This document shows, piece after piece, positions 13,701 through 32,970 of a stretch of 64,000 bases of DNA. Made by a program: the position numbers and the translations under genes. The stretch comes from Ruania halotolerans (GTDB lineage: Bacteria; Actinomycetota; Actinomycetes; Actinomycetales; Beutenbergiaceae): positions 1,809,380-1,873,379 of the forward strand of contig NZ_CP088017.1 of NCBI RefSeq assembly GCF_021049285.1. Reading direction: 5' to 3'. Numbering within the stretch: position 1 is the first letter of the stretch; every line of letters begins with the position of its first letter. The notes beneath the pieces were generated by a model that was not told the DNA's origin, ran no database searches, and worked only from the letters and a program-made list of their open reading frames with translations.

Positions 13701-15350
13701 GCCCGCGGCGGAGATCGTGGTGGTGCCGGAGACGAACTCGCCGTCGGTCACGTTCAGCCGTACCGGGTCCGTCACGGCCCCGGCGATCGGAACGCGCACC
13801 GCCTCGGTGGTCACCTCGTTGGCGCCGTCGGTGATGGTGAGGGTGTACTCGTACCAGCTCTTCCCGGTCAGATCGGCGGCGGTGACCGTATGGGTGTAGC
13901 GGTCATCCGGGCCGTGGGTGAGTGAGACCTCTCGGGGTGCGTCGTCTACGTCGTTGGTCAGCGTCAAGGTGGCGGTGCGTACCTGGACATCGTCGGTGAG
14001 GGTGAATTCGAGCGTGAAGTCCTCGGCCGGGTCGATCTCGTCGGCCGTGCCACCCTCGATCACCGGCGCGACGGTGTCCTCCGGCACGATCATCAGCCCA
14101 TCCGGCACCTGGTCCGCCTGCACGGCTCCCGGAGTCGCGGGGGCCGTGTCCACGAGCGTCTGCAGGCTCAGGTCCTCGGGGTTCACCGCGTACCGGATGC
14201 CCTGGTCAGCCGAGGTGTCATCCGCATCGGTCATGTTGTAGTAGGCACGGTTGATCCCGAAGCCGGTGTTGGTGCGGATCTCGACGCCACGGGGAGAGCC
14301 GTTGGCCATCCCGCCGACGAAGACCTCCACCAGGTCGGTGCCCAGGGTCAGCTCGGTCCCGAACTGGGCGTTGAACTCGGCATCGCCGAGGTCATCGTTC
14401 TGCCCGTTCTTGACCCACAGCACCAGCGTGCCGCCCGATTCGATCGTGACGTCACGGGGCACGCTCGGCCAGTGCGCCTCGTTGGTGTTCGTGGTGGTGT
14501 CCTGCGGGTACAGGTAGGTCAGGGCGTAGTCGGAGAAGTCCACCGGTTCGGAGGTGGCGTTGTACAGCTCGATGAATTCGTACCCGTCCGCGGTGCCCAC
14601 GTTCGTGGAGTCGGGCAGGATCTCGGTCACCTGCAGCGGCGCCGTGATCAGGTCCGGATCGGGTCCGGGCTGAGGTTCCGGATCGGGCCCCGGTTCCGGG
14701 TCGGCGGGAACGAGGCTCTCCGGGTCGAGCGTTCCGGGCGTGGGCTCAGCCAGGGTGGCCAGGACCGGATAGGACCGCTGGCCCGCCTCGGCGGGAAGCC
14801 GGAATGTGGTGCTCAGATCGTTGCCCATCGATCCGGCCGGGTAGAAGGAGCGGGTCTCATCGCCATCGGGAGCGGTCACCCGGATGCCCCGGTCGCCACC
14901 ATTGGCCATCCCGGGCTGGCCGGTGATCCGGACCACGCGAGCGGTCTCCGGGGTGCCGGTGTGGGTGCGGAACTCGGCCTCAGTCCGGGCGAACGAGTCG
15001 AGCGTGCCATCTGCATTGGTGTAGCTGAGCCAGAGCACGATCGTCTCACCGGAGGCGAGAGTGACGTCGTCGTCGATGGTCAGCGCGACGTCGCCGCTGG
15101 TGTCGTCGGAGTCACCGTAGGTGTAAGCCAATTGGTAGTCGGCGAGATCGACCGCCGCGCCGGAGGGGTTGTGCAGCTCGAGCCACTCGTAGTTGTCGTA
15201 GCTGGCGTTGTTCGCCACGATCTCGGACACGAACACCGAGTCGCGGGTGGCGGCGCTCGCGGAGAGCGCCGGGGGGAGGGCGACGGCGCCGAGAGCGGCG
15301 AGTGTCGATGCGGTGAGGGCGGCGAGGAACCGGCCCGATCTGCTGGCCAC
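10782..15350 (-). CDS. Cell-wall-anchored metallophosphoesterase with two lamin-tail domains and an LATTG sorting signal
   Basis: The 1522-residue protein is secreted and sortase-anchored. In order: signal peptide (about 1-34, ending ALSASAA), lamin-tail domain 1 (about 38-195, 'YEWLELHNPSG'), a DPEPGPDPEP linker (about 212-236), lamin-tail domain 2 (about 240-400, 'YEFIELYNATS'), several Ig-like/carbohydrate-module-like beta domains (430-1020), and a calcineurin-type metallophosphoesterase (about 1028-1260). That last domain has 'HTGDIVD' near 1070, 'GNHD' at 1105-1108, and 'GHYH' at 1222-1225. A further beta domain, a Ser-Asp-Gly repeat stalk (about 1417-1480), LATTG at 1489-1493, a hydrophobic helix and RRRQ complete it. 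The substrate (nucleotide, phosphodiester or phospholipid) is not readable. Confidence 0.9.
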   Translation of the reverse strand: MASRSGRFLAALTASTLAALGAVALPPALSASAATRDSVFVSEIVANNASYDNYEWLELHNPSGAAVDLADYQLAYTYGDSDDTSGDVALTIDDDVTLASGETIVLWLSYTNADGTLDSFARTEAEFRTHTGTPETARVVRITGQPGMANGGDRGIRVTAPDGDETRSFYPAGSMGNDLSTTFRLPAEAGQRSYPVLATLAEPTPGTLDPESLVPADPEPGPDPEPQPGPDPDLITAPLQVTEILPDSTNVGTADGYEFIELYNATSEPVDFSDYALTYLYPQDTTTNTNEAHWPSVPRDVTIESGGTLVLWVKNGQNDDLGDAEFNAQFGTELTLGTDLVEVFVGGMANGSPRGVEIRTNTGFGINRAYYNMTDADDTSADQGIRYAVNPEDLSLQTLVDTAPATPGAVQADQVPDGLMIVPEDTVAPVIEGGTADEIDPAEDFTLEFTLTDDVQVRTATLTLTNDVDDAPREVSLTHGPDDRYTHTVTAADLTGKSWYEYTLTITDGANEVTTEAVRVPIAGAVTDPVRLNVTDGEFVSGTTTISAAGETYPPELELSIDDAPVSTEPSLEDAPLFVFEVSQTDFYFRNGVRIGEDVLFIFDEGTYSNTETMSTPVPLEYLTQGEDVTVSVWAGTKAAPEIDENENNDDFVISGMRLILPDGRTLTPAGYDDPNQTIAMGDSTGKHDFYDSVFTLPDDAYTALAHEWDTTAVADGEHTVRAIDGDDEASAAVLVDNTAPQVTPSVNDGQTYQGEIVLDAQVSDGAGAGVESTTATLDGEQIELPHTTSSVELEAGDHELIIEAADGVGNVTESVTTFVVPDEEPLGTGTAPADGAQVPAGDVTLTATVSDPTGDPLDVQFRQGYRYELGDDEVTASQGTTRDAAAIERDGAVLATADLSTQAGLDPVTSSTALPYTQFDVQVPAEAGDAADVRLAWEGTANADSQVILYALSADGAAWVEVDRHHTQADGEEISLGGTVAAGDHATEGAVTVLVQHSEGFAGADLSDRDDTVEPYHPDDTPRSEYDFTIGWESDTQYYNEEFYEHQVAIHDYLLGQREDMNLQYVIHTGDIVDEYDQPYQWENADPQYARFDEAALPYGVLAGNHDVGNQLADYSVYSEYFGEDRFSGNPWYGESFQDNRGHYDLISAGGIDFLMLYMGWDPGQDAIDWMNEVLARHPERVAIVNLHEFMLTTGGLGPIPQQIMDEVVATNPNVRMVFSGHYHDAFTRIDGFDDDGDGVEDRNVYSMLFDYQGLPEGGLGYLRMLQFDNDGEQMRVRTFSPSEDRYNSDDPNLLGSGEDPYEFQDFEVSYDELRIDPDVKELVTDSFTAEVLGETVIASFEDVATDGSQVGAASADGQRSVARMPIPHPDGSMTLSATWTLTEPGEYGWFVESADDNGGVNTSAVRTFVVVGSDGSSSDGSDDAGSDGSGSDGSGSDGSGSDGSGSDGSGSDGTGADGTGSDGSGSNGTGADGSDSSDGQSAGDGDLATTGPGPMLALLSAAAALVFVGAVIRRRQLRTA
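10915..11103 (-). repeat. Ser-Asp-Gly coding repeat (stalk of the surface protein)
   Basis: Short 15-bp units coding (G-S-D-G-S)-like peptides repeat with degeneracy. They form the low-complexity wall-spanning stalk between the enzyme domains and the LATTG signal. Asp-rich Ser/Gly stalks are common in sortase substrates. Copy number is prone to change by slippage, and since the unit is a multiple of three this would not shift the frame. Confidence 0.8.
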
Positions 15351-18993: not shown

Positions 18994-20382
18994 GTGCCCC
19001 ACGTCGACCTGCTCTTGATCGGCACCGGATCGGGCAACTCGATCCTCTCCGAGGAGTTCGCCGGCCGCACGGTGGCCATCGTGGAGCGTGGAACATTCGG
19101 GGGTACCTGTCTGAACGTCGGATGCATCCCGACGAAGATGTTCGTGCACACCGCCGATGTGGCGGCCACGCCTGGATCCTCGTCCCGGTTCGGCGTGGAC
19201 GAGACGCTGGATCAGGTGCGCTGGGCTGACATCCGCGATCGTATCTTCGGCCGCATCGACCCGATCGCCGCCGGTGGCCTGGAGTACCGCACCTCGCATC
19301 AGGACAATGCGCACGTGCAGGTGTACCAGGGAACTGCGAGGTTCACCGGTGAACGCCGGGTACAGGTCACCCCCAACGACGGCGGTCCTGAGGTGGAGGT
19401 GACGGCTGACCAGGTTGTGGTGGCGGCAGGTGGGCGACCCTTCATCCCGGCCATCGACGGCTTGGCCGATATCGACTTCCATACCAGTGACACGATCATG
19501 CGCCTCGATCGGTTGCCGCGGCACCTGACAGTTCTTGGCGGCGGTTTCGTCGGCTCGGAACTCGCTCACGTGTTCTCCTCGCTCGGCGTCGCAGTCACGG
19601 TGATCAACCGCTCGGAGGCGTTACTGCGGGGTGAGGATGAGGAGGTGTCGGCGCGCTTCACGGAGATCGCCTCGGAGCACTGGGACGTGCGACTGAACAC
19701 CCGCGTGCGCAGCGCTGCTTCGCACGGCACCGCGATCCACCTCGAGTTGGAAGGACCTGACGGGTCGACCACGCTTGAGACCGACGAACTACTGGTGGCC
19801 GTCGGGCGTGTGCCGAATTCCGATCTGCTGGATGCCACGGCCGGTGGTCTGGGAGTGAACCCCGCCGGACTGCTCGTGGTGGATGAGTACCAGCGCACGA
19901 CGGTCGACGGTGTCTGGGCTCTCGGCGACATCTGCTCCCCGTGGCAACTCAAGCATGTGGCCAACCACGAGGCCAGGATCGTCCAGCACAACCTGCTGCA
20001 CCCGGACCGGCTCCGCGCAAGCGACCATCGGTACGTGCCGCACGCGGTCTTCTCCTCGCCCCAGGTCGCCTCGGTCGGCCTCACCGAGAAGCAGGCGCGC
20101 GCCCAGGGCATCGACATCTCGGTCGCGCGCCAGGCGTACGCCGATATCGCCTATGGCTGGGCCATGGAGGACACCACCGGGTTCGCCAAACTGGTGGCGG
20201 AGAAGGGGACTGGTCGCCTCCTCGGGGCGCACATCATCGGCCCGCAGGCCCCCACGCTGATTCAGACGCTGATTCAGGCGATGAGCTTCGATCAGGATGT
20301 ACGTGAGGTGGCCCGGGGGCAGTACTGGATCCACCCGGCCATGCCTGAATTGGTGGAGAACGCGCTGCTCCAGCTCGACTGA
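18994..20382 (+). CDS. mtr: Mycothione reductase
   Basis: This flavoenzyme reduces mycothiol disulfide with NADPH, keeping the actinobacterial thiol pool reduced. The N-terminal FAD motif is 'LLLIGTGSGNS', the redox-active disulfide is 'GGTCLNVGCIPTK' (Cys39 and Cys44), the NADPH motif is 'LTVLGGGFVGSELAH', the second FAD motif 'VDGVWALGDIC' follows, and the C-terminal 'YWIHPAMPELVENALLQ' holds the catalytic His-Glu pair. The GTG at 18994 has the ribosome-binding site GGAAGGA at 18980-18986. The gene is the best evidence that the host makes mycothiol. Confidence 0.95.
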   Translation: MPHVDLLLIGTGSGNSILSEEFAGRTVAIVERGTFGGTCLNVGCIPTKMFVHTADVAATPGSSSRFGVDETLDQVRWADIRDRIFGRIDPIAAGGLEYRTSHQDNAHVQVYQGTARFTGERRVQVTPNDGGPEVEVTADQVVVAAGGRPFIPAIDGLADIDFHTSDTIMRLDRLPRHLTVLGGGFVGSELAHVFSSLGVAVTVINRSEALLRGEDEEVSARFTEIASEHWDVRLNTRVRSAASHGTAIHLELEGPDGSTTLETDELLVAVGRVPNSDLLDATAGGLGVNPAGLLVVDEYQRTTVDGVWALGDICSPWQLKHVANHEARIVQHNLLHPDRLRASDHRYVPHAVFSSPQVASVGLTEKQARAQGIDISVARQAYADIAYGWAMEDTTGFAKLVAEKGTGRLLGAHIIGPQAPTLIQTLIQAMSFDQDVREVARGQYWIHPAMPELVENALLQLD

Positions 20383-20997: not shown

Positions 20998-21136
20998 GTC
21001 CTCATCCTCGCATCGTTGCCCGGCCCGGAGGGAGGGGGAGACCCGCCCAGCGGCGGCAACCGGCGGCAACACCTCCGCGGGGCGGGTCGCCCGCCATAGG
21101 GTGATCGGGACGTTCATCGGCGAAAGGGACAACAAC

Positions 21137-22306
21137 GTGTCGCAACAGGTCAGGGTCGGGATCATCGGTTACGGCGCCCAGGGATCGACCTATGCCCGGA
21201 TGCTCGCCGAGGGCTCGATTGCGGGAGCCACCCTCGGGGCCGTCGCCGATCATGACCACGCCCGCCGCTCGCTCGTGGCCGAGGAGCACCCGGGAACCCC
21301 GTTGTTCGAGGAGTACCTGGACCTCCTTGGCAGTGGTGCCGTGGACGCCGTGGTCACCACAGTCCCGCACTACCTGCATCCCGAGGTGGCGATCGCCGCC
21401 CTGGAAGCTGGGCTGCACGTGCTGGTGGAGAAGCCTGCCGGCGTCTACACGGCACAGGTGCGAGAGCTGAACGAGTTCGCCGCCACCAAGCCGGACCTCA
21501 CCTTCGCGATCATGTTCAACCAGCGCACCAACCCGCTGTACCGGAAGATCAAGGAGATCGTGGACGCGGGGGAGATCGGTGCGATCCGCCGCTCGAACTG
21601 GATCATCACCACGTGGTGGCGCCCGCAGGGCTACTACGAGCAGAGCGCGTGGCGTGCCACCTGGGGTGGCGAGGGCGGCGGCGTCCTGGTGAACCAGGCC
21701 CCGCACCAGCTGGATCTGTGGCAGTGGATCTGCGGTGTGCCGAAGTCCGTGGTGGCCAAGGCGGGCTTCGGGTTCCGTCGCGACATCGCCGTCGAAGACG
21801 AGGTGACCGCCCTGGTGGACTACGGTGACGGCGCCACCGGGGTGTTCATCACGGCGACCCACGACCTGGTCGGCACCGACCGCTTCGAGATCCTCGGCGA
21901 CAAGGGCAAGATCGTCGTGGAGGGTTCCGCGACCGCCACCGTGACCCGACTGGTCAAGGACGAGCGGGAGATCAGCGATGGCGTGCCCGCCGAGGACGTG
22001 CGCAAGATGTTCCGGGGCGAACTCGGACTCGCGGAAATGCAGGAGACCGAGACCCTCTCGTTCGACTCCGCGTGGGGCTCCCAGCACGGTGAGGTGCTAC
22101 GCAACTTCGCCGCGAATATCCGGGGGGAAGAACCACTCCTTGCGCCTGGCTCGGACGGGATGAACGGTGTGCGGTTGGCCAACGCCATCCACCTCTCCGC
22201 CTGGCTCGGCCGCGAGGTACCGCTCGACTTCGACGAGAGCCAGTACCTGGAGGAGTTGAACGCACGCATCCGCGCCGAGGGGAAGTTCCCCGAGCGGGCC
22301 GGATGA
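21137..22306 (+). CDS. Gfo/Idh/MocA-family oxidoreductase
   Basis: An NAD(P)-dependent sugar or inositol dehydrogenase-type protein of 389 residues. The Rossmann motif is 'VGIIGYGAQGSTYARM', the EKP motif is 'HVLVEKPAGVY', and the C-terminal domain contains 'GGVLVNQAPHQLDLWQWICG', which carries the catalytic His. GTG 21137 is selected over the longer frame because a GAAAGGGA ribosome-binding site precedes it and the family N-terminus begins five residues later. It converges tail-to-tail (5 bp gap) with the LacI gene, so co-regulation is not evident. The substrate is unknown. Confidence 0.92.
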   Translation: MSQQVRVGIIGYGAQGSTYARMLAEGSIAGATLGAVADHDHARRSLVAEEHPGTPLFEEYLDLLGSGAVDAVVTTVPHYLHPEVAIAALEAGLHVLVEKPAGVYTAQVRELNEFAATKPDLTFAIMFNQRTNPLYRKIKEIVDAGEIGAIRRSNWIITTWWRPQGYYEQSAWRATWGGEGGGVLVNQAPHQLDLWQWICGVPKSVVAKAGFGFRRDIAVEDEVTALVDYGDGATGVFITATHDLVGTDRFEILGDKGKIVVEGSATATVTRLVKDEREISDGVPAEDVRKMFRGELGLAEMQETETLSFDSAWGSQHGEVLRNFAANIRGEEPLLAPGSDGMNGVRLANAIHLSAWLGREVPLDFDESQYLEELNARIRAEGKFPERAG

Positions 22307-22311
22307 GCTGA

Positions 22312-23301
22312 TCAGGACCGCGGCGGTCCCACCGAGCTGCGCACCACGAGACTCGGTTCCACCACGTCGATCCGGGGTGCCGCACCGCCGATGACGTCCT
22401 CGAGGAGTTGCAGCGCACGCTGCCCGATCAGCAGTCGTGGTTGATCGAGACTCGTCACTTGGGGCCGCACCAGTCGCGCCACATCGCTGTTGTCGTATCC
22501 GACCACGGACAGGTCCGCTGGCAGGTGGAGTCCGGCGTCGAGCGCCACCCCCACAACCTCCACGGCGCGCCGGTCTGTCGCGCAGTACACCGCCGTCGGC
22601 GCAGTCTCCGGCGCCGAGCGGACGAAATCGATGAGACGGGCGGCGTCCTCGAAGACGGCCGGGTTCAGCCCGTCGCGGATCATCAGTTCGAGGTAGGCCC
22701 GACGCCGTGCCTGCGCCGCCGCGCGCGGCGAGCCCGTCAGGTGCGCGATCCGTTCGTGCCCGTGCGCCCGCAGGTGCTCCAGGGCGAGGAATGTGCCGTG
22801 TTCGTCATCGTTGTACACAGCGGCGACGGCGGAGCCCACCTCGTTCGGCCGGCCCACCTGGACGAGAGGGTAACGAGCCGCTGCTCGCTCCAGCTCTGCT
22901 GAGTCCAGCAGTGCCGAGACCACCACGATGCCGTCGGTGCCGAGTGCAGCGAGGGAGTCGATCCGCTGGGCCAGGGTTGCCGGGTCGCGGCGCCCGTGGG
23001 CGATGAGGATCTCGATGCCGCGTTCGGCAGCTGCGTCCTCCAGCCCGGCCACCACATCGGTGTGGTGGTCACTGTGCAGATCGTTGAGTACCACGCCGAC
23101 GAGCTGGCTCCGCCCTCGAGCGAGGGCCCGGGCCAGTCGATTGGAGTGATAGCCGAGATCGGTGGCGATGGTGCGGATCCGGTCCCGGGAACTGGCGCTG
23201 ACCCCCGGGTCGCCGCGTAGCGCTAGCGAGACGAGTGACTTTGACACTCCCGCCTGCCGCGCCACGTCCATGATCGTGGGACGGGGCTGGGGGTCGGGCA
23301 T
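22312..23301 (-). CDS. LacI-family transcriptional regulator
   Basis: A 329-residue repressor. The N-terminal helix-turn-helix and hinge are 'TIMDVARQAGVSKSLVSLALRGDPGVSASSRDRIRTIATDLGYHSNRLARALA' (residues 9-61), followed by the two-lobed periplasmic-binding-like sensor domain ending 'TSLDQPRLLIGQRALQLLEDVIGG.....VVEPSLVVRSSVGPPRS'. The start at ATG 23301 is preferred over the upstream frame. It is divergent from the HAD-ECF operon, and the inverted operator pair at 23354-23390 lies between them, so it most likely controls that operon and itself in response to the transported compound. Confidence 0.93.
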   Translation of the reverse strand: MPDPQPRPTIMDVARQAGVSKSLVSLALRGDPGVSASSRDRIRTIATDLGYHSNRLARALARGRSQLVGVVLNDLHSDHHTDVVAGLEDAAAERGIEILIAHGRRDPATLAQRIDSLAALGTDGIVVVSALLDSAELERAAARYPLVQVGRPNEVGSAVAAVYNDDEHGTFLALEHLRAHGHERIAHLTGSPRAAAQARRRAYLELMIRDGLNPAVFEDAARLIDFVRSAPETAPTAVYCATDRRAVEVVGVALDAGLHLPADLSVVGYDNSDVARLVRPQVTSLDQPRLLIGQRALQLLEDVIGGAAPRIDVVEPSLVVRSSVGPPRS

Positions 23302-23353
23302 GTTCTGGTTTGTATCACAGCCAACCGGACGTTCGTGTGCACACGCACCCATC

Positions 23354-23390
23354 CTGGAGCGTTCCAGAAGTGGCCTCTGGAACGCTCCAG
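23354..23390. promoter_or_regulatory. Paired LacI-type operators in inverted orientation
   Basis: CTGGAGCGTTCCAG (23354-23367) and CTGGAACGCTCCAG (23377-23390) are exact reverse complements, and each alone is a near-palindrome with the central C-G step expected for LacI-family sites. Their centres are 23 bp apart. They lie 53 bp upstream of the LacI start and 99 bp upstream of the HAD gene start, placed to control both directions. Confidence 0.8.
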
Positions 23391-23488
23391 AGTGTTCATC
23401 TGGGCGTCGCTTTCTGCACACCCGGTCGTCCTAACGTCGCTGTCGCGGGCCAGTGGCACGCACGACGACCCCAAGAGACCGGAGCATG

Positions 23489-25240
23489 ATGTCCACCCAC
23501 CACGCACCACGTGACCTCCTCGGCAGCACCACGCCGATGATGGAAACGGAAAGTCACACCACCGGCCGGCTCCTGTCACCCCGCGGCCTCTTGTTGGACT
23601 TCGGTGGCGTGGTGTTTCTGACCGCGAAACGTGCCGGCGGTGTGACTGACTGGGTTCGTTCCGTGCTGGCCCGGCTTGATCTCCTCGGGTTGGCGCCCGA
23701 TGAGGACCAGGTGGCTGCCTCCTTCGTGAGCGGGCTGGCGGCGCTGAAGCATTGGAAGCACGCCGCCTCGCGTCGTCCGGAACCGAGGGAGCTCAGTCAT
23801 CGGGAGATCGTCGCGGACTTCCTCGCCTCTGACCTTGAGGCGCCGCTACGGGCCGCACTGGCCGCCGATGCGGACGAGGTGCTCCGCCTGCAGACGTCCA
23901 TGCTCAGCGATCACACCTTGCGTCCGGGAGTCCGCGAACTCCTCGACTCGGCCGACCGCCTCGGCATCGGCGTGGGAATCGTCTCCAATGCCCACTCCGG
24001 GGAGAGTCACCGTGCGCTGTTGCGCCGGCACGGACTGCAGGAACGGTTCGCCGTGCAGGTCTACTCCGACGAGGTGGGGATCCGTAAGCCGCATCCCGGC
24101 ATCCTGGTTCTCGGTGCCGAGGCGCTCGGCATTCCGATCCAGCAATGCTGGTACGTCGGGGACACCCTCGATCGAGACGTCGTCGCCGGACGTCGCGCCG
24201 GTGCGGGCGCGGTCCTGGTCACCCGGAGCCAACACACCGACTCGCCGCCCTTCGCTGTGACCGCGGATGCAGACCTCGTGTGCGAGGATCCGCGCGGCGT
24301 GGTCGCTGCGCTGGATGCCACCGTCGCAGCAGAGACGGAGCACCGCCACGAGGTTCCAGCTGGACCCGGCCCGGCACCTGCCTCGGACCCGCGGTCCGAG
24401 CATGCGGGACCTCGCCCGGTCACCGCATCTCTGCGGCGCCGCGCTGCGGTGTTTCTCGATCACGGCGGCGTGATCTCCGGATCCAGCCGTGACGAGGTGG
24501 GCCGAGCGGCATTCGCCCAGCGGGTGGCCGATCGGCTCAGCAGTTCGGCCGAACCGGTCTCGGCTGAGCAGATCGCCACAGCCATTGAGCGCGCGCTGGG
24601 CGAGTACGCCGAGCTCAAGGCCCGGAACAGGCGCCTGCACGAGGCCTCCGGCGCGCCGAACGCCGAGGTCGACCCCCGCATGTTCTGGGATGACCTCGTG
24701 GGTGCCGGCCTGCCACCGCGGATGCGTGCCGTGCTGCGCGCAGAATGCGTGGGACTCGCCCAGGAGTGGGGCCGTGCCAAGTCTCGCCGCGTCCTGCGGC
24801 CCGGAATCCGCGAGCTCGCCCTGATGTGCCGCGACGAGGGCGTGCCCGTTGTGGTCGTCTCGAACACGGCCAGCGGCCGCGCTGTGCGCGCTGAGTGCCG
24901 CGGGCACGGACTCGATGACGTGATCGCTGCCTACATCTGCTCCGATGAGGTCGGCGTGCGTAAACCGGATCCCCGGATCCTGCAGGAGGCCATCACGCTC
25001 GCCCATGCCGACCCCGCGCAAAGCTGGTTCGTGGGCGACCGCCCCCAGAATGATGCGCTGGTCGCCCGGCGGTGCGGTATCGCCCACCGCGTGCTGGTTC
25101 TCGGCGGTACGGCCAACCGAACAGATGCAGAGGCGGCCCTCGATGCCGGGGACGCGACCGCCGTCGTGGCCGATACCGCAGACCTTCCTGACCTCTACCG
25201 GCGCACGCGGGCGGTCACGTTCGCGGGTGCCATCACCTGA
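23489..25240 (+). CDS. Tandem HAD-family hydrolase (two HAD domains fused)
   Basis: A 583-residue protein with two complete haloacid-dehalogenase-like domains. Domain 1 (about 30-265) has motif I 'LLDFGGVVF' with nucleophile Asp37, 'GIVSNAHSG', the Lys motif 'GIRKPHPGI', and the acidic motif 'YVGDTLDRDVVAG'. Domain 2 (about 315-560) has 'VFLDHGGVIS' (Asp324), 'VVVSNTASG', 'GVRKPDPRI' and 'FVGDRPQNDALVA'. In both, the usual second Asp of motif I is Gly, as in the YihX group of sugar-phosphate phosphatases. A Pro/Arg-rich linker separates them. The start is ATG 23489 or the adjacent 23486. It leads the ECF transporter operon, which suggests dephosphorylation of the transported compound or its product. 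Confidence 0.9.
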   Translation: MSTHHAPRDLLGSTTPMMETESHTTGRLLSPRGLLLDFGGVVFLTAKRAGGVTDWVRSVLARLDLLGLAPDEDQVAASFVSGLAALKHWKHAASRRPEPRELSHREIVADFLASDLEAPLRAALAADADEVLRLQTSMLSDHTLRPGVRELLDSADRLGIGVGIVSNAHSGESHRALLRRHGLQERFAVQVYSDEVGIRKPHPGILVLGAEALGIPIQQCWYVGDTLDRDVVAGRRAGAGAVLVTRSQHTDSPPFAVTADADLVCEDPRGVVAALDATVAAETEHRHEVPAGPGPAPASDPRSEHAGPRPVTASLRRRAAVFLDHGGVISGSSRDEVGRAAFAQRVADRLSSSAEPVSAEQIATAIERALGEYAELKARNRRLHEASGAPNAEVDPRMFWDDLVGAGLPPRMRAVLRAECVGLAQEWGRAKSRRVLRPGIRELALMCRDEGVPVVVVSNTASGRAVRAECRGHGLDDVIAAYICSDEVGVRKPDPRILQEAITLAHADPAQSWFVGDRPQNDALVARRCGIAHRVLVLGGTANRTDAEAALDAGDATAVVADTADLPDLYRRTRAVTFAGAIT

Positions 25241-25275
25241 CCACCGCCGACACACCACCACTCCGGAGGACAACT

Positions 25276-26193
25276 ATGACCAGCAACGACACTCTGCGCG
25301 AGGGGCTGCTCCGCACCCGCGTAGGCGAGCCCGGTGGGTTACGCACTCCGCAGAAGCTCATGATCTTCGTCCTATCGATGTCCCTGTTCGGGCTTTCCAA
25401 CATCATCTTGGAGGTCATCCCGGACATCTCGATCGGACCGGTCGATATCTCCGTGTCCTATTTCGTGTTCGTTCCGCTCGTGATGGTCGCGCTGTTCAGT
25501 CCGTTCTGGGCTGCGATCGGTGCACCACTGGGGGAGATCGTCTTCACCGATCTGCTGATGGGGGACTTCTCTGGCCTCGCAGAGGTGGAGGGTTTCATCC
25601 AGATGGCCCTGGCGCTCTACATCGCGGGCTCGCTGATCCGTGATCCTCGCCGGGTCGGTCAGATCTGGATGGGGGCGATCACCGTGGTGGTGGTGGACAA
25701 GTTCCTGTCCGCGGCCGTGGACTTGGCCAAGGTGTGGGTGGGCGTCGAGGACGCCGAGTTCGTGGAGGGGCTCCCTCAGTCCATCCTGCTCTTGGAGGGA
25801 ATCGGCTTCGGCGTGGACATCCTGATCAGCGGGATCCTCTTCGGTGCGATACCGGCGATGTATCTCATCCCGGCGCTCCACGGGAAGATCGAACCGTTGC
25901 TCGGGCTCCGCCCGCGGATGCCCGGCGAACGGGTCCCGGGAGCCGGTGGCACGTGGTTCATCGTGCTCGCCGTGCTCCTCTCCGTCGCCTCGTTCCTCTT
26001 CGCCTTCCTCGAAGCCTGGGACATGAGCGTGGGCAGCGTCGACGCCGAACTGCGTGAGACCTATGGCGATGGGATGCTCTGGATCAGTGTGGCGCTGCTC
26101 GTTGCACTGTTGATTGCCACGGTGCTGGTGGCGCGCTGGCGAGCCAGGCGCCGGGAGCACCAGGGCGCCGGGAGCGCCGAACGTGATGCCTGA
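25276..26193 (+). CDS. ECF-type transporter substrate-binding membrane (S) component, candidate
   Basis: A 305-residue integral membrane protein with about six to seven hydrophobic helices; the first begins at 'MIFVLSMSLFGLSNIILEV'. The stretch 'FVFVPLVMVALFSPFWAAIGAPLGEIVFTDLL' resembles the substrate-binding helices of S components. It is followed directly, with an 8-bp overlap, by a fused ECF ATPase and then the T component, so its assignment as the S component rests on that context. No family-specific motif tells me the substrate. It is longer than typical S components (about 180-220) because of a C-terminal helix pair and charged tail. Confidence 0.75.
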   Translation: MTSNDTLREGLLRTRVGEPGGLRTPQKLMIFVLSMSLFGLSNIILEVIPDISIGPVDISVSYFVFVPLVMVALFSPFWAAIGAPLGEIVFTDLLMGDFSGLAEVEGFIQMALALYIAGSLIRDPRRVGQIWMGAITVVVVDKFLSAAVDLAKVWVGVEDAEFVEGLPQSILLLEGIGFGVDILISGILFGAIPAMYLIPALHGKIEPLLGLRPRMPGERVPGAGGTWFIVLAVLLSVASFLFAFLEAWDMSVGSVDAELRETYGDGMLWISVALLVALLIATVLVARWRARRREHQGAGSAERDA

Positions 26194-27970
26194 GTTGCCC
26201 ACTGAGCCCATTGTCGAGTTCGACCGTTTGAGCTTCCGGTATCCGGGTGCCGAGCAGGATGCGTTGCGCAATGTCACGGCGTCGATCCCCCGGGGAGACT
26301 TCGTGGCCGTCATCGGCGGGAACGGCGCCGCGAAGACCACCCTGTGCAAGGCGATCACCGGCCTCATCCCGCACTACTGGGACGGCGAGTTCGCCGGTGC
26401 GGTTCGGGTGGCGGGGCAGGACACCTGGGAGACCGACGCGTCGCAGCTGGCCAGCGTGGTGGGGTACGTCGCCCAGGACTTCCAGAACCAGCTGGTCCGG
26501 CCGACCGTCCGCGACGAGGTGGCTTTCGGGCCACTGAACTTCGGGCATGCGGACTACCGTGAACGCACCGATGAGGCGCTCGAGCTCCTCGGCCTGACGG
26601 AGATCGCCGATCGCTTCGTCTGGCAACTCTCCGGCGGTCAGGCTCACCTGACGGCCCTGGCGGCGGTGCTCGCGCTGCGCCCTCAGGTTCTCATCGTGGA
26701 CGAGCCCGTGGCGGAGGTCGATCCGGCCAGGGCAGGTCTCGTGTACGAGAAGCTGCGTGTCTTGAATGCTGAACTGGGCATCACGGTGATCACGATCGAA
26801 CACCATGTGGAGTTCGTCGCACGGTACGCCCGCAGCGTGCTGTTGATGGCTGAGGGTCGTCCGGTCTGGCACCTCCCCGTTGAGGAGGCCATGGCCCGAT
26901 CCGATGAGCTGGCTCGGTACGACGTACCACCGTCCACGCTGGTGGCTGCGGTGCGCGCCGCGGGTGAGCAGAGCACGCCACGGACCGTGGCGGAGGCGGC
27001 TGACCTGCTGGCCGGGCGGAGTTGGGTTCGCTCGCCACCTCCTGATGCAGCATCGAGTGATCGCAGGAGTTCCGGTCTGGTTCCCGGCACACCGGTCGCC
27101 ACGAGTTCTGTCCGGGAGCCGGTTGCCACGTTCGCCTCTGTCTCGCACGCCTATCGCGGTGTGGACGGCTCGCTGTTGCCTGTCCTGCGAGAGGTGGACC
27201 TGGAGTTGTACGAGGGTGAGCAGGTAGCGCTCGTCGGCGGGAACGGGGCCGGGAAATCGACCCTGCTGCGCATTCTCGCCGGCATCGTGATCCCGCGCGC
27301 CGGTCAGGTGCGGGTGCGCGGCACGGACACCGCAGCTGTCAGTGCCGCCGTGATGGCCCGGCAGGTGGCGTACCTGGCTCAGCACCCCGCCCAGATGTTC
27401 CTCACCGGGCAGATCCGCGATGACATCGCCCTGTTCCCGAGCACGCACGGGTACGACAACGTCGAGGCCGCCACCGAACGCATCCTCGGTCAGGTACGCC
27501 TTCGCGAGCATGCCGATAGAGACGGGCGCCTGCTCTCCGGCGGCCAGCAACGCCGAGCCACGATCGGGATCGGCCTCGGGATGAGGCCACACCTGCTGCT
27601 CCTGGACGAACCGACGGCGAGTCTGGACACCCGCAGTAGGGACGACGTCGTGATGATGCTGCGTGAGCTTGCCGCATCCGTCAGTTGCGCCGTGGTGGCC
27701 TCCCATGACATGGACTTCGTCGCGGCCTGGGCGGACCGGGTGATCGTGCTCGGCGAGGGACGCATCCTCGCCGATGTGAGTCCGGCTGAACTGTTCGCGG
27801 ACGCGGCGCTGCTCACCGCCGCACATCTGGTGGCACCTCAGCTCGCACAACTCGGCACCGCGCTGGGCCTCTCCCCGCCACCGCTGACCCTGGCGCAGTG
27901 GAGTGAGTTGATGAGCGCCGGCACGCCGGAGGGCATGGCCGAGAGCGTGACGATGGGAGCTCTGCCATGA
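26186..27970 (+). CDS. Fused dual-ATPase of an ECF transporter
   Basis: A 594-residue protein with two ABC ATPase domains (A1-A2 fusion). Domain 1 has a degenerate Walker A, 'GGNGAAKTT' (residues 44-52, Ala49 in place of the invariant Gly, Lys50 kept), the signature 'LSGGQAHLTALAA' and Walker B 'VLIVDEPVAEVDP'. Domain 2 has the canonical Walker A 'GGNGAGKST' (351-359), 'LLSGGQQRRATIG' and 'LLLLDEPTASLD'. ATG 26186 is preferred because it overlaps the S-component stop by 8 bp. A linker of roughly 50 residues joins the domains. The protein powers import by the S and T subunits encoded on either side. Confidence 0.93.
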   Translation: MPELPTEPIVEFDRLSFRYPGAEQDALRNVTASIPRGDFVAVIGGNGAAKTTLCKAITGLIPHYWDGEFAGAVRVAGQDTWETDASQLASVVGYVAQDFQNQLVRPTVRDEVAFGPLNFGHADYRERTDEALELLGLTEIADRFVWQLSGGQAHLTALAAVLALRPQVLIVDEPVAEVDPARAGLVYEKLRVLNAELGITVITIEHHVEFVARYARSVLLMAEGRPVWHLPVEEAMARSDELARYDVPPSTLVAAVRAAGEQSTPRTVAEAADLLAGRSWVRSPPPDAASSDRRSSGLVPGTPVATSSVREPVATFASVSHAYRGVDGSLLPVLREVDLELYEGEQVALVGGNGAGKSTLLRILAGIVIPRAGQVRVRGTDTAAVSAAVMARQVAYLAQHPAQMFLTGQIRDDIALFPSTHGYDNVEAATERILGQVRLREHADRDGRLLSGGQQRRATIGIGLGMRPHLLLLDEPTASLDTRSRDDVVMMLRELAASVSCAVVASHDMDFVAAWADRVIVLGEGRILADVSPAELFADAALLTAAHLVAPQLAQLGTALGLSPPPLTLAQWSELMSAGTPEGMAESVTMGALP

Positions 27971-28791
27971 GGAAGACCCGAGATGTGTTGTCGGTGGAGT
28001 GGATCCGGTTGGAGCTGGTCCGGGCCGCCTACGCCACCCGCGGGGGAGTGCTCGCGGCGATGGACCCCCGCGCAGTGTTGGCCTGGTACGCACTGCTCGC
28101 GCTGGCACCGTGGTTCACCCACAACGTCACCGTCCTCACCGCTCTGTTCCTCCTCGGTCTGGCTGCCGTGCTGCTGGCACGCGTCGGACCGCTGCTCCTC
28201 GGCCTGTTCCTGTTCGGGATCGCGATGGAGACGATCTATCTCGCCGCTGCCGCCTGGCTGTTCGGGGGAGACCTGAGCACCGTTGTTGCGCTGGCTGTCC
28301 TCTCCCTGAAGTTGGGGACCGTCTCGGCAGCGAGCATGGCCGCGTTCGTCTCGCTTGACCCGGAGAAACTCTCAGATGGACTGCTGGCGTTGCGTGCCCC
28401 AGAGCTCGTGGCGTTCGGTGTGAGTTACGGATACCGGATGCTGCCGGTCCTGATCGACGAGTACGGCACCGTCCTCGAGTCGTCCCGGTTGCGCACGGCG
28501 CCGCCGGCGAAGCCGGGTTTCCTCGGATACCGGGTGCTCTGGCATCACGCCAGGCTGGTCGTGCTCGCCTTCTACCCGATGTTCCTGAACACGGCACTGG
28601 CCGTGCGTACCACGGTCGAGTCGCTGGAGACGCGAGGGTTCACCTTTGCCATGCGCGACGGCGGAGCGCGCCGGCTCCGTCTGGCGCACCTTCGGTTCGG
28701 CCCTCGTGATGGTGTCGTGCTCGCGCTGACGGTGGTGGGTGTGGCGGCGGCATTCGGAGCTGGCCAGGTATGGCCGGTGTACCGGATGTGA
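27967..28791 (+). CDS. ECF transporter transmembrane (T) component
   Basis: A 274-residue CbiQ/EcfT-type membrane protein. 'MDPRAVLAWYALLALAPWFTHNVTVLTALFLLGLAAVLL' at the N-terminus, 'VAFGVSYGYRMLPVLIDEYGTVLESSRLRTA' in the coupling region and the C-terminal 'VRTTVESLETRGFTFAMRDGGARR' agree with T components, which have conserved Arg/Gly coupling helices (A-R-G-like). It overlaps the ATPase stop by ATGA and closes the operon. Confidence 0.9.
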   Translation: MRKTRDVLSVEWIRLELVRAAYATRGGVLAAMDPRAVLAWYALLALAPWFTHNVTVLTALFLLGLAAVLLARVGPLLLGLFLFGIAMETIYLAAAAWLFGGDLSTVVALAVLSLKLGTVSAASMAAFVSLDPEKLSDGLLALRAPELVAFGVSYGYRMLPVLIDEYGTVLESSRLRTAPPAKPGFLGYRVLWHHARLVVLAFYPMFLNTALAVRTTVESLETRGFTFAMRDGGARRLRLAHLRFGPRDGVVLALTVVGVAAAFGAGQVWPVYRM

Positions 28792-28889: not shown

Positions 28890-29519
28890 ATGTCCGTCAA
28901 GCAGGGACTGCTGGCGCTGCTGAGTGTGGAACCGATGGGCGTAGCGCGGCTCCGTAAGGAGTTCGAGACGCGTACAGGGGGCACGTGGCCGCTCAATATT
29001 GGCCAGGTATACACGACCATGCAGCGGCTGGAACGAGACGGGCTGGTCGAGCGAGTCGATGACCATCCGGATACCGTCGTCGACGACGCAGGCACCGCCG
29101 TCGAACGGTTTGCGCTGACCGGAGCGGGCCGGGAGGTGGCCGAGGGCTGGTGGCTCACCCCGGTCCGGCGCGGTGCTCCCGAACGGGACGAGCTGGTGAT
29201 CAAGGTGGCGCTCGCGGTCACCACTCCCGGTGTACAGGTGCGGGACGTGGTGCAGCGCCAACGCACTGAGACGATGCGCTCACTGCGCGACCTCACCCGG
29301 CTCAAGGCCACCGCCGACGGCGGAGAGACCGAAGATCTCGCGTGGTCACTCGTCCTGGACAATCACGTGTTCGCCGCCGAGGCGGAGCTGCGTTGGCTCG
29401 ATCACATCGAATCCAGGGCCGAACGAGCCTCGCGATTGCGGACCGGTGCGCCAGCGACGCAGGGCGACTCCGCGCAGGACCCGGCGGCTCCCAGCACCGC
29501 CGAGGGACATGCCCGATGA
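28890..29519 (+). CDS. PadR-family transcriptional regulator
   Basis: A 209-residue winged-helix protein: 'SVKQGLLALLSVEPMGVARLRKEFETRTGGTWPLNIGQVYTTMQRLERDGLVERV' is the PadR DNA-binding domain and 'RFALTGAGREVAEGWW' its wing. The longer C-terminal helical half (about residues 100-180) would carry the dimer interface and ligand pocket. A very strong ribosome-binding site precedes the ATG. The stop overlaps the next gene's start (ATGA), so the regulator is co-transcribed with an ABC exporter, the usual arrangement for substrate-responsive efflux control. Confidence 0.93.
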   Translation: MSVKQGLLALLSVEPMGVARLRKEFETRTGGTWPLNIGQVYTTMQRLERDGLVERVDDHPDTVVDDAGTAVERFALTGAGREVAEGWWLTPVRRGAPERDELVIKVALAVTTPGVQVRDVVQRQRTETMRSLRDLTRLKATADGGETEDLAWSLVLDNHVFAAEAELRWLDHIESRAERASRLRTGAPATQGDSAQDPAAPSTAEGHAR

Positions 29520-30262
29520 GCGCCGGTCCGGTGATCCTTCAGCTCGTTGATACTACGCGTGTGCACGGTGAAGGCGCTCGCGAGGTTCGGGCCCTGGACG
29601 GAGTGAACCTCACCGTACGGATGGGCGAACTCGTGGCCGTGATGGGCCCCTCAGGCTCGGGCAAGTCCACCTTGCTCAACCTGGCGGGCGGTCTCGACAC
29701 CCCGACCAGTGGTGCGGTCCGGCTGGCCGGCGATTCGCTCTCGGACTTGGACGCGAAAGGCCGCGCAGGGCTGCGCCGCCGCCGGATCGGTTATGTGTTT
29801 CAAGACCTCAACCTCATTCCCGCGCTCACAGCGGCCGAGAACGTGTCTCTACCTCGGGAGCTGGACGGTGTGCGGGCGCGCAAGGCGCGGCGTGAAGCAC
29901 TCGCCGCACTGGAGGAGGTGGACCTGCGGGACCTCGCGAACCGGTTCCCGGATGAGATGTCAGGCGGGCAGCAGCAACGGGTGGCGATCGCTCGCGCACT
30001 GGTCGGCCCACGCAGGCTCGTGCTCGCTGACGAACCCACCGGTGCATTGGACTCCGCCACGGGTGAGGCGGTGATGAAGGTGCTGCGAGCTCGGATGGAC
30101 GCCGGCGCGGCTGGTCTGCTCGTCACCCACGAACCCCGCTTCGCTGCCTGGGCGGACCGGACTGTCTTCTTGCGCGACGGGGTGATCGTCGACGCCACCG
30201 AACCGGACGAGCCGGAGCACTTGTTGACTGCTGCCGGACCGAGGCGACGGGACGAACGATGA
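29516..30262 (+). CDS. ABC transporter ATP-binding protein (MacB/LolD type)
   Basis: A 248-residue ATPase that pairs with the FtsX-like permease next to it. Motifs: Walker A 'GPSGSGKST' near residue 45, Q-loop in 'YVFQDLNLIPALTAAENV', signature 'MSGGQQQRVAIARALVG', Walker B 'LVLADEPTGALD', H-loop 'LLVTHEPRFA'. ATG 29516 is used, overlapping the padR stop by ATGA; a longer frame from 29342 lies inside padR. Such pairs export antimicrobials or lipids or carry signals of cell-envelope stress. Confidence 0.94.
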   Translation: MSAGPVILQLVDTTRVHGEGAREVRALDGVNLTVRMGELVAVMGPSGSGKSTLLNLAGGLDTPTSGAVRLAGDSLSDLDAKGRAGLRRRRIGYVFQDLNLIPALTAAENVSLPRELDGVRARKARREALAALEEVDLRDLANRFPDEMSGGQQQRVAIARALVGPRRLVLADEPTGALDSATGEAVMKVLRARMDAGAAGLLVTHEPRFAAWADRTVFLRDGVIVDATEPDEPEHLLTAAGPRRRDER

Positions 30263-32970
30263 GCCGCTGGCTCACCCGCTGGCGAGCCGCCCTGCGGATC
30301 GCGCGTCGCGATGCGCTCCGGAACAAGGGCCGGACGGTGCTGGTAGTGCTGCTGATGATGTTGCCGGTCGCCGCGGGGACGTTTGCGATCGGTGTGCTGC
30401 GCATGTCATACCCCACACAGGAGACTCAGATCGAGTGGGCGATGGGGGAGTCGGCCCAGGCTCGCCTCTCGTTGCCCTGTGGTGAGCGGATTCCGACGGC
30501 GCAGGCGGCCGATGGTTCGTCGGGCATGTGCGATGAGGGTGGGGACCTCGGGCCGGTGACCGACGCCGAGTGGGCATCGGTACTGCCGGACGGTACTGAC
30601 ATCGTCGACGGCGCGCAGATTGGGACGAGTATCCGAACGGCAAGCGCCCTGATCGATTACACCGACTTGCTTGAAGTAGACGCCTACCAGGTGCCAGGAC
30701 TGCTGGGGACCATCAGCGGTGAGGCCGTACCCACCGCGGGTGAGGCGGTGCTGGTCCGCGGCATCGCCGATCGCCTCGGCGTGGGCGTGGGGGACGAGGT
30801 GGAGATCGACCTTGACGGGGAGATGGCACCTCTGACGGTGATCGGCATTGGCGACAGCGCCACGACCACGGGTGCCGTGATCGGTCCGGGCACCATTCCC
30901 GACGGCGTAGCGGAGCCGATCTGGTTCGTCACTGGGGAGGCTCCGGTGACGTGGGCCGACGTGGTCGAGCTCAACACGATCGGGATCCTCGTGGAGAGCC
31001 GGGCGGTGATCCTTGACCCGCCACCGGATGATGAGGTCTATGGCGGTAGGTTCTCCCACCCAGGGTCCGACGCCACGATGATCGGCTACTTTCTCGCCGT
31101 CGGCGGGCTAGGACTGCTGGAGGTCGTGCTCCTGGTGGGGCCAGCCTTCGCGGTGGGTGCGAAGCGGAGTGCCCGCTCGCTGGCTTTGGTGGCCGCCGCT
31201 GGTGGACAACCGCGTGATCTGCGCAGGATCGTGCTCGCCGGTGGTGTGGTGGCCGGCCTATTGGCAGCCGTGGTGGGGGTGCTCGTCGGCGCGGCGGCTA
31301 GCCTCGTCGTGTACACGGTGATGCAGTCTTCGAGCAACCCGCCAGCCAACCTGGTGTTCCCGTTCGGAGAATGGGCAGCTGTCGCAGCAGTCGCACTCAT
31401 CCTGGGCGTCGCGGCGGCCTGGTTTCCGGCACGCGCGGCGTCCCAGGCCGACGTCGTCACCGTGCTCGCCGGGCGCCGGAGCGAGCCGGCACAGCGACGG
31501 GCAGTGCCATGGGCAGGACTCGGAGTGGCCGTCATCGGGTTCGTGCTCGGGGTGGTCGCTGCGGCGTTGAGCCAACCCATCATGCTCGCCGCAGGTGCTC
31601 TGGCGGTCGAGATTGGCATCATCATGTCCGTCGGAGCCCTGGTGGCATTGGTCGGCCGGCTGGCTCCACGGTTTGGCGTCGCCGGCCGATTCGCGCTCCG
31701 GGACGCTAATCGGCACCGGAGCCGCACCACGCCCGCGGTGGCGGCCGTGGTGGCAGCAGTGGCCGCAATGACCGCTGGCCTGGTGTGGACGGTCAGTGAA
31801 GAAAGTGCCCAGGAGGGCATCTGGCAGCCGGTAGCAGCCGACGGGACAGGTCTGCTCAGCGTCGGGATCCCGCCAAACTCGGCAGTCGACCAGCGCACCC
31901 TTTACCAGGACGCTGCGTCGGTGGTCGAGGACGAGTTCCCAGCGGCGAGCGTCACGCCCGTCCGCGAGGTTGCCGTCACTGATGGTGGATTCTTCCCGTG
32001 GCCCTTCCCGCTCACCGACCCCGCGAAGGAGTGCCCGGACCCTGACCTCTGGTCGGCCGACGCCGACGACCCTCGGTGCCGATACGAACCGGGAGTGTCC
32101 TCGGGTTACAGCTGGGGCTTCCAGCTGATCGATGACGGCACCTTCGTGCGCACGCTGGGCCTCGACGGCGCCGCCGAGGCTGCCGACGCGTTGGCTGCCG
32201 GGCATGCCCTGACGAACGACCCTGATTCGATCTGGCCGGATGGGAATCTTCATCTCGCTGCGAGCGAGGGCCCGGAGAACGGTGAGGAATCGATGGTGCT
32301 CCCCGCGTACCTCGTGCCGTGGTCATCGAATCAGTACACGCTAGTGCTGCCGGTCGAGGCGGTGGGCGAGATTGCCGTGCCCGCGGAGGGCTCCAGCGAA
32401 TCAGCCGGGGCATCTGCACTCGACGAAGGACTCATCGAGATCCGGACAGTTGGCGCTACCGTCACCGGAGTCAACTTCGAGCGGGCAGACGTCGACCGGC
32501 TGAACCGGCTGCTCGCCGACGTCGAGGCCAACACGCGGATCCAGGTCGAGGGTCAGATGACTCAGGAGGATTCTGACGTGATCACGTGGGTCCTGCTCGC
32601 CATCGCGGTCTTCGTCGCGCTGGCGGCGACTGGGCTGAGCGTCGGACTGGCCCTCGCTGACTCCCGCGCTGACTTGGCCACGCTCGCCGCGGTCGGTGCC
32701 AGCCCACGGATCCGCCGTCGCGTGACTGCCGCCCAGGCCGGAGTGATCGCGGTGATTGGGACCGCTACCGGACTTGTCACCGGGATTGCACTCAGCTTCG
32801 TGCTGGGCTGGTGGGCCGCTACGAGCTTCGGATATGGCGATGCGTGGCAGACGATCATTCCGTGGCAGCCGCTCGCCCTTGCGCTCGTCCTCATCCCAAC
32901 CTTGGCGATTGGCGGCGGATGGCTGTTCACGCGATCGCGGCTCGCTGTAGTGCGCCGCATCGTTTCCTGA
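30259..32970 (+). CDS. FtsX-like ABC permease
   Basis: A 903-residue permease. After a basic N-terminus and a first helix ('VLVVLLMMLPVAAGTF') comes an extracellular domain of about 190 residues. A bundle of helices (about 270-530) resembles two FtsX/MacB core blocks, followed by a second large extracellular domain (about 530-770) and a C-terminal FtsX block with 'ITWVLLAIAVFVALAATGLSVGLALADSRADLATLAAVGASPRIRRRV'. The ATG overlaps the ATPase stop by ATGA. The large extracellular parts suggest a lipid- or peptide-handling efflux role. Substrate unknown. Confidence 0.92.
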   Translation: MSRWLTRWRAALRIARRDALRNKGRTVLVVLLMMLPVAAGTFAIGVLRMSYPTQETQIEWAMGESAQARLSLPCGERIPTAQAADGSSGMCDEGGDLGPVTDAEWASVLPDGTDIVDGAQIGTSIRTASALIDYTDLLEVDAYQVPGLLGTISGEAVPTAGEAVLVRGIADRLGVGVGDEVEIDLDGEMAPLTVIGIGDSATTTGAVIGPGTIPDGVAEPIWFVTGEAPVTWADVVELNTIGILVESRAVILDPPPDDEVYGGRFSHPGSDATMIGYFLAVGGLGLLEVVLLVGPAFAVGAKRSARSLALVAAAGGQPRDLRRIVLAGGVVAGLLAAVVGVLVGAAASLVVYTVMQSSSNPPANLVFPFGEWAAVAAVALILGVAAAWFPARAASQADVVTVLAGRRSEPAQRRAVPWAGLGVAVIGFVLGVVAAALSQPIMLAAGALAVEIGIIMSVGALVALVGRLAPRFGVAGRFALRDANRHRSRTTPAVAAVVAAVAAMTAGLVWTVSEESAQEGIWQPVAADGTGLLSVGIPPNSAVDQRTLYQDAASVVEDEFPAASVTPVREVAVTDGGFFPWPFPLTDPAKECPDPDLWSADADDPRCRYEPGVSSGYSWGFQLIDDGTFVRTLGLDGAAEAADALAAGHALTNDPDSIWPDGNLHLAASEGPENGEESMVLPAYLVPWSSNQYTLVLPVEAVGEIAVPAEGSSESAGASALDEGLIEIRTVGATVTGVNFERADVDRLNRLLADVEANTRIQVEGQMTQEDSDVITWVLLAIAVFVALAATGLSVGLALADSRADLATLAAVGASPRIRRRVTAAQAGVIAVIGTATGLVTGIALSFVLGWWAATSFGYGDAWQTIIPWQPLALALVLIPTLAIGGGWLFTRSRLAVVRRIVS

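Follow-up and report, generated by a model that had tools for sequence, protein, structure and literature searches.

A compact gene module at positions 22312-28791 of the analysed stretch of the Ruania halotolerans genome (the window: 64,000 nucleotides, contig NZ_CP088017.1, positions 1,809,380 to 1,873,379) combines a LacI-family repressor, a protein with two fused HAD domains (HAD2), and the S component, fused A1-A2 ATPase (A) and T component of an energy-coupling factor (ECF) importer. Judging from the sequences and their conservation, this module could be a dedicated importer of a sugar-type micronutrient, combined with a hydrolysis step and controlled by the local LacI repressor, a reading for which the arguments on the two sides appear about evenly balanced. 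In this genome, which consists of a single 4.27-Mb contig, the repressor gene lies opposite the co-oriented HAD2-S-A-T run, with a pair of operators between them. The features of the module, numbered from the first base of the window, are as follows.

22312-23301, minus strand: LacI-family repressor with an HTH and a periplasmic-binding-like ligand domain, 329 aa, ATG start at 23301 (PF00356, 46.4 bits; PF13377, 101.6 bits)
23354-23367, no strand: operator 1, CTGGAGCGTTCCAG, conserved in related intergenic regions
23377-23390, no strand: operator 2, CTGGAACGCTCCAG, the exact reverse complement of operator 1, with the two starts 23 bases apart
23486-25240, plus strand: HAD2, 584 aa when started at the ATG at 23486, with two HAD domains in one chain (PF00702 in two stretches)
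25276-26193, plus strand: S component, 305 aa, with a C-terminal two-helix extension (predicted fold, no family match)
26186-27970, plus strand: fused A1-A2 ECF ATPase, 594 aa (TIGR04520, TIGR04521, two ABC_tran stretches)
27967-28791, plus strand: T component of the EcfT/CbiQ type, 274 aa (PF02361, 38.5 bits, cut-off 25), kept behind A in relatives

The run is tightly packed, with overlaps of 8 bases between S and A and 4 bases between A and T; HAD2 and S are separated by 35 bases, with GGAGGA ahead of the ATG of S. An alternative start of HAD2 is the GTG at 23453, and the LacI reading frame stays open to 23421, its start at 23301 having been chosen by reading the sequence. The ATPase passed the cut-off of TIGR04520 (327.1 bits against 315) and scored just below that of TIGR04521 (320.9 bits against 330). 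Together with the T component and the structural alignment of S described below, these matches bear out the initial annotation, which had proposed a complete ECF importer. As in the group I (dedicated) ECF importers, such as BioMNY, CbrTUV and YkoEDC, the S component, the ATPase pair and the T component are encoded together and the S fold matches solved S components, and the three proteins are predicted to form an importer of that type, driven by ATP. The module differs from group I importers in that its S component belongs to no Pfam or NCBIfam model that could be found and carries the two-helix extension, in its constant HAD or PHP partner, and in its control by LacI and operators instead of a riboswitch: searched with Rfam at gathering scores, the window yielded just a tRNA and no riboswitch. 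The Walker A motif of the first ATPase domain reads GGNGAAKTT, with Ala replacing the Gly before Lys; GGNGAAKTT or GGNGSAKTT was seen in 31 of 114 aligned stretches, a set that includes repeated genomes and some other ATP-binding cassette (ABC) proteins.

The association of HAD2 with the importer is very regular. The S component was found in 22 of 199 genomes (the window's own and its relatives), 20 of which are solid cases, namely the window's own genome and 19 others at 44-74% identity; the weak matches in G148 and G009 were left out of the counts. A HAD2 profile (E ≤ 1e-60, seven best candidates scored per genome) matched exactly the same 20 genomes, which belong to 10 of the 75 genera. The distribution is patchy: the module is present in two of the eight genomes of the window's genus, and among 396 genomes sampled from the phylum, the S profile matched 9. 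In the locus set (the best 80 of 339 relatives from GTDB genome contigs), HAD2 adjoins S in 72 loci and a PHP-domain protein is the partner in three, while in the other five the S match begins 101-423 bases from a contig end. These counts rest on a tblastn census, since a simple gene caller mis-called genes in the medium-GC loci. LacI is divergent to HAD2 in 69 of the 72 loci; the other three comprise two loci with just 781 and 2300 bases of sequence before S (L063 and L092, respectively) and a rearranged Nesterenkonia locus (L097). The order S-A-T is kept in 79 of the 80 loci, and the sequence of the remaining one (L073) ends 1167 bases past S. Gene clustering across the window and 20 further neighbourhoods left the five module families as the only ones present in more than four of them. 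The conserved linkage on which the initial annotation had staked its HAD-ECF module is therefore found, and HAD2 is a constant partner of the importer.

Two distant relatives lie apart from these counts, with no S match at 1e-10 in the tblastn census. In one (L044:8929-12081, genome G148), an S-like domain is apparently fused ahead of the double ATPase; in the other (L139:9644-12783, genome G250), S, A and T stand alone. Neither HAD2 nor PHP was found in these two loci.

The two operators are each imperfect palindromes (6 of 7 pairs) and exact reverse complements of one another, which confirms the perfect inverted pair noted at the outset. The sites are commoner than chance would give: among the LacI-HAD2 intergenic stretches of the window and its related loci (87 in all, with 10 genomes counted twice), 82 have a site within two mismatches of the consensus CTGGAACGTTCCAG or CTGAAGAGTTTCAG. 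No such site was present in 1703 length-matched random stretches taken from these loci, of which 13 came within three mismatches. An 88th locus (L060), where the LacI and HAD2 matches overlap, was left out. The CTGAAGAGTTTCAG variant belongs to the Brachybacterium group, in which LacI has also diverged further (41-42% identity in the cases where it was found). The five exceptions comprise one locus without a good site (L081) and four (L079, L082, L084, and L110) with another palindrome, TTGCAGATCTGCAG or CTGCAGATCTGCAG.

The regulon looks limited to S-A-T, HAD2 and LacI. The two operators of the module are the only exact CTGGANCGNTCCAG sites in the whole genome, and the search for regulon members proposed in the initial annotation gave no further target shared among the 17 module genomes. 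Exact-pattern sites were found in 16 of these 17 genomes, with none in G088; the 15 operator-like sites outside the module lie within called genes in 13 cases and between genes in two (L191 and L199), and no neighbouring gene was visibly common to different genera, no family search having been run on these neighbours. Nine of the 15 (L193-L201) come from a single genome, G106, the most of any of the 17, and one of them lies inside another LacI-type gene. In Nesterenkonia G090 (L030), the HAD2 gene is turned round and stands behind T, with LacI ∼4.5 kb past HAD2; operator cores are found there at 9185 and 9275 before S, at 14836 and 14859 before HAD2, and at 19114 before LacI, so that each of the rearranged units has its own operator, which speaks for a regulon closed around S-A-T, HAD2 and LacI. 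The genes between HAD2 and LacI in this locus were considered as a tripartite ATP-independent periplasmic (TRAP) transporter, a reading based on their lengths that was dropped because the sequences look more like a putative MoxR/DUF58-type operon.

The LacI-HAD2 pair is not the only setting of this importer. In all three Bacillota examined (Oceanobacillus rekensis, Paenibacillus sp. OVF10, and Salibacterium salarium) and in all 10 loci of another class of the window's own phylum, S-A-T is followed by a PHP-domain protein in tblastn searches, and an RpiR-type regulator with HTH_6 and SIS domains is encoded behind PHP or divergently before S (13 of 13 loci). The PHP variant occurs in 10 of the 197 genomes of that other class that were searched, five of which also appeared in the scan of 396 genomes from the phylum. 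The HAD2 profile that matched 20 genomes elsewhere had no match in the ten PHP genomes of the other class, and no PHP orthologue was found in the 20 HAD2 genomes, which gave seven short matches of at most 26.1 bits, compared to 432.7 and 438.1 bits for the positive controls. In a tree of the S component with 96 rows, the 12 PHP rows make up one side of a single branch (support 100/99). Enzyme and regulator have thus been replaced as a pair, in one switch on the S tree, by unrelated proteins of similar type. Sugars or sugar phosphates are the usual signals of LacI and of SIS-domain RpiR proteins, and HAD and PHP proteins have phosphoester hydrolysis in common as their most frequent chemistry; the replacement of LacI and HAD by RpiR/SIS and PHP therefore points to a sugar-type signal and to hydrolysis, and is the strongest functional hint available. 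Three of the ten PHP loci of the other class also carry, upstream of S and on the opposite strand, the gene of a HAD protein with a single domain (L135:6388-6984, L137:8524-9150, and L138:8754-9389), with the motif I FDMGGVLMTF in L135 and L138.

The same data bear on the idea that HAD2 and PHP act off the substrate path, clearing toxic phosphorylated by-products or targeting the importer or the regulator. The closed regulon, the lack of other pathway genes and the house-cleaning functions of HAD enzymes would all agree with such a role. However, HAD2 strictly co-occurs with the importer and, in the loci that lack it, an unrelated hydrolase takes its place, which suggests that the reaction is linked to the substrate; an off-path role is considered distinctly improbable.

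The predicted architecture of HAD2, with two fused domains heading the operon, was confirmed by the two PF00702 stretches and by the conservation of the catalytic motifs in both halves. In all 19 aligned sequences, motif I is DFGGV in the first half and DHGGV in the second, and the residues of motifs I-IV are invariant (D38, S167, K201, D226 and D231; D325, S459, K493, D518 and D523), with Ser-Asn in motif II. The halves are related to each other: the second half of the window protein and the first half of the L042 orthologue share 36.9% identity over 236 residues (E = 1e-30). The relatives in the PDB include PH1655 and HDHD3 and, lower down, YihX (8pne, E = 7.4e-6). HAD2 shares the HAD core with its Asp nucleophile with type IA hydrolases such as YihX, an alpha-D-glucose-1-phosphate phosphatase, but has two catalytic domains per chain, both with DxGGV, and has better PDB matches than YihX, such as 2hoq (E = 9.4e-13). 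An interrupted copy that was excluded from the alignment is found in genome G005 of the window's genus (L027:10414-12009; the same locus appears in L051), where the frame is broken by one in-frame stop into two open reading frames (ORFs) of 199 and 330 aa; both decay and sequence error could account for it.

The S component gave no sequence match of note in Pfam, NCBIfam or the PDB: no Pfam S-component family was detected in 14 diverse members up to E = 5, and no NCBIfam vitamin S family (ThiT, BioY, RibU, FolT, PanT, and others) matched the four members searched. An AlphaFold2 model built from 20 sequences (pLDDT 80.5, pTM 0.74) was used in place of a single-sequence model (pLDDT 50.7). In VIA-align, ranked among the 1000 chains placed highest by Foldseek, the top 18 rows were all ECF S components (Z values 9.6-12.6, compared to 5.7 for the next row), with root-mean-square deviations of 3.2-4.2 across 150-181 residues; one of these entries, 4huq, is taken by us to be an S component, its record title saying only transporter. 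Foldseek by itself gave a best E value of 0.043, which is weak. The predicted model supports, with fair confidence, an ECF S-component fold for this membrane protein.

Eight charged residues of S (E46, E87, E103, E105, D149, K152, E161, and E174) are kept in at least 91 of 95-96 rows of the alignment, including all 12 PHP rows; E206 and R214 are equally well kept and sit in the loop after helix 6, which is taken as inside. Lys and Arg residues number four at the N-terminus, three in the loop 121-126, four in the loop 202-225 and one in 255-265, with none in the loops 48-64, 96-100, and 156-165. S components bind their ligands at the outer face, and on the known topology of such proteins and the Lys/Arg distribution, the eight residues would lie toward that face. 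This balance of seven acids to one lysine hints at a hydrophilic ligand that carries hydroxyl or amine groups, and the charge pattern fits an amine-bearing or polyhydroxyl compound better than a bare sugar phosphate.

Vitamins are the usual cargo of ECF importers, and the module could be an ordinary importer of a vitamin or cofactor precursor with an S component that has diverged past recognition, in which case HAD2 or PHP would strip the phosphate from a vitamin phosphoester of the thiamin monophosphate (TMP), pyridoxal phosphate (PLP) or flavin mononucleotide (FMN) type. The S model lies at similar distances from FolT, ThiT, RibU, PanT and BioY (Z values of the different S components within 3), an acid-rich pocket would suit thiamin-like cations, Phe65, Phe90 and Phe98 are invariant in the 14 diverse members, and 13 of the 20 module genomes lack ThiC. 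However, the initial annotation's remark that S could not be matched to a known vitamin transporter stands, even at the permissive Pfam threshold; control is exerted by LacI or RpiR without a riboswitch in the window; and no Tyr, Trp or His of S is kept at 90%. Nor does vitamin auxotrophy find support for the three vitamins covered: ThiC is not rarer in genomes with the module (7 of 20, compared to 21 of the 179 others), and PdxS and DHBP synthase are each present in 19 of the 20 (G121 lacks both). A vitamin cargo is regarded as unlikely.

The regulator invites a comparison with nucleoside or ribose scavenging, in which the importer would bring in a (modified) nucleoside and HAD2 would act as a nucleotidase. 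The best NCBIfam matches of LacI are CytR, RbsR and UriR, all far under cut-off, and pyrimidine nucleotidases are among the sub-cut-off NCBIfam matches of HAD2. In the Bifidobacterium regulons described in PMC4746261, RbsR paralogues control nucleoside genes and, as in the module, a local LacI-type repressor has its operator beside transport genes; the main text of that paper contains neither the term ‘energy-coupling’ nor ‘phosphatase’. The module differs from those regulons in having an importer without a sugar kinase or nucleoside hydrolase, and it has no nucleoside phosphorylase or nucleoside kinase either; CcpA is the best PDB relative of LacI, ahead of LacI itself, RbsR and PurR, among others; and the acid-rich S component does not point to a base. 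Nucleoside uptake is accordingly considered quite unlikely.

The proposed course of events under the sugar-type reading would be as follows. In the absence of ligand, LacI would hold the divergent promoters via the paired operators. The little substrate that enters, or its phosphoester, would bind LacI and open the operon. The importer would then take up a scarce, hydrophilic, sugar-like compound, perhaps with an amine, as the conserved acidic, outward side of S suggests. HAD2 would hydrolyse the phosphoester of the imported compound, or of a form made in the cell, and the product would join housekeeping metabolism. The PHP enzyme and the RpiR/SIS regulator would take over these tasks in some Bacillota and in one further class of the window's phylum. 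The least certain parts of this scheme are the phosphatase chemistry, the amine and the origin of the phosphoester, which may be imported or formed in the cell.

Several points weigh against this reading. LacI and RpiR proteins are usually, but not always, sugar sensors, and there is no kinase or catabolic gene beside the module, which is unusual for a sugar pathway. The outward placement of the acids is based on topology and Lys/Arg counts rather than on measured distances; the acidic binding side itself argues against import of an anionic phosphoester, and the invariant Phe65, Phe90 and Phe98 leave room for an aromatic ligand held by stacking. The mutual exclusion of HAD2 and PHP was observed in the ten genomes of the other class and the 20 HAD2 genomes. 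Both HAD domains have Gly at position +2 of motif I, where classical phosphatases have Asp (DxD), so that phosphatase activity is not assured; YihX also has Gly at this position. On the PHP side, where the family assignment was checked on five PHP and three RpiR proteins, three of the five PHP proteins exceed the PF02811 cut-off and two fall under it. The motifs HxH, TEH, E, H and GSDxH are invariant in seven sequences of the PHP partner, and HxH, TEH and GSDxH are shared with PsfC-type enzymes. The best solved relative of the PHP profile is PsfC itself (7rty, E = 6.5e-16), a remote link; according to PMC12871164, PsfC is a dinuclear non-heme iron enzyme of fosfomycin (phosphonate) synthesis that acts on a phosphonate and is not a phosphatase, whereas the PHP protein of the module sits behind an ECF importer. 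The initial proposal of a sugar- or nucleoside-like substrate with a phosphate step thus holds in part: the exchange for RpiR/SIS and PHP favours a sugar-type signal and a hydrolytic step, while the substrate class is putative, as is phosphatase action by HAD2 in view of the Gly at +2 and of PsfC as the nearest solved PHP relative.

These last features raise the possibility of an importer of aminophosphonates or other phosphono-compounds, with HAD2 being phosphonatase-like and PHP acting like PsfC, and a zwitterion could be held by the seven acids and single lysine conserved in S. However, the module lacks the transaminase that a phosphonatase route needs, LacI or RpiR control is not typical of phosphonates, and the relation of PHP to PsfC is remote; this option is rated very improbable.

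The genes that flank the module were rejected as parts of it in the comparison of 20 neighbourhoods plus the window. This applies to the GFO/IDH/MocA gene at 21101-22306 and to the genes at 28890-32970, 3′ of the module, which encode a PadR-type regulator followed, on a reading of the ORFs, by ABC ATPase-like and large permease-like proteins; this trio did not recur beside the module among the neighbourhoods compared. No published description of the module was found in the open-licence literature in PubMed Central (PMC), and the main text of PMC4052901 does not contain the words cobalt, haloacid or phosphatase.

ECF S components with an unknown ligand are common, but few orphan S components carry so many independent constraints on one missing metabolite: a closed five-gene regulon, a single enzyme that strictly accompanies S, the exchange of that enzyme and of the regulator for unrelated families across phyla, and eight charged positions that are fixed in S. 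LacI, RpiR, HAD2, PHP and S provide five independent probes for that metabolite. It is conceivable, albeit rather doubtful, that the module represents an ECF family beyond those for vitamins and metals, serving a sugar-type nutrient (an amino sugar, an aminopolyol or a phosphoester of these), with uptake obligatorily coupled to hydrolysis in the cytosol by one of two unrelated enzymes, tandem HAD or PHP, and to control by one of two unrelated sugar-sensing regulators, LacI or RpiR/SIS. If the cargo is indeed a sugar-type compound, the module would widen the known cargo range of ECF importers.

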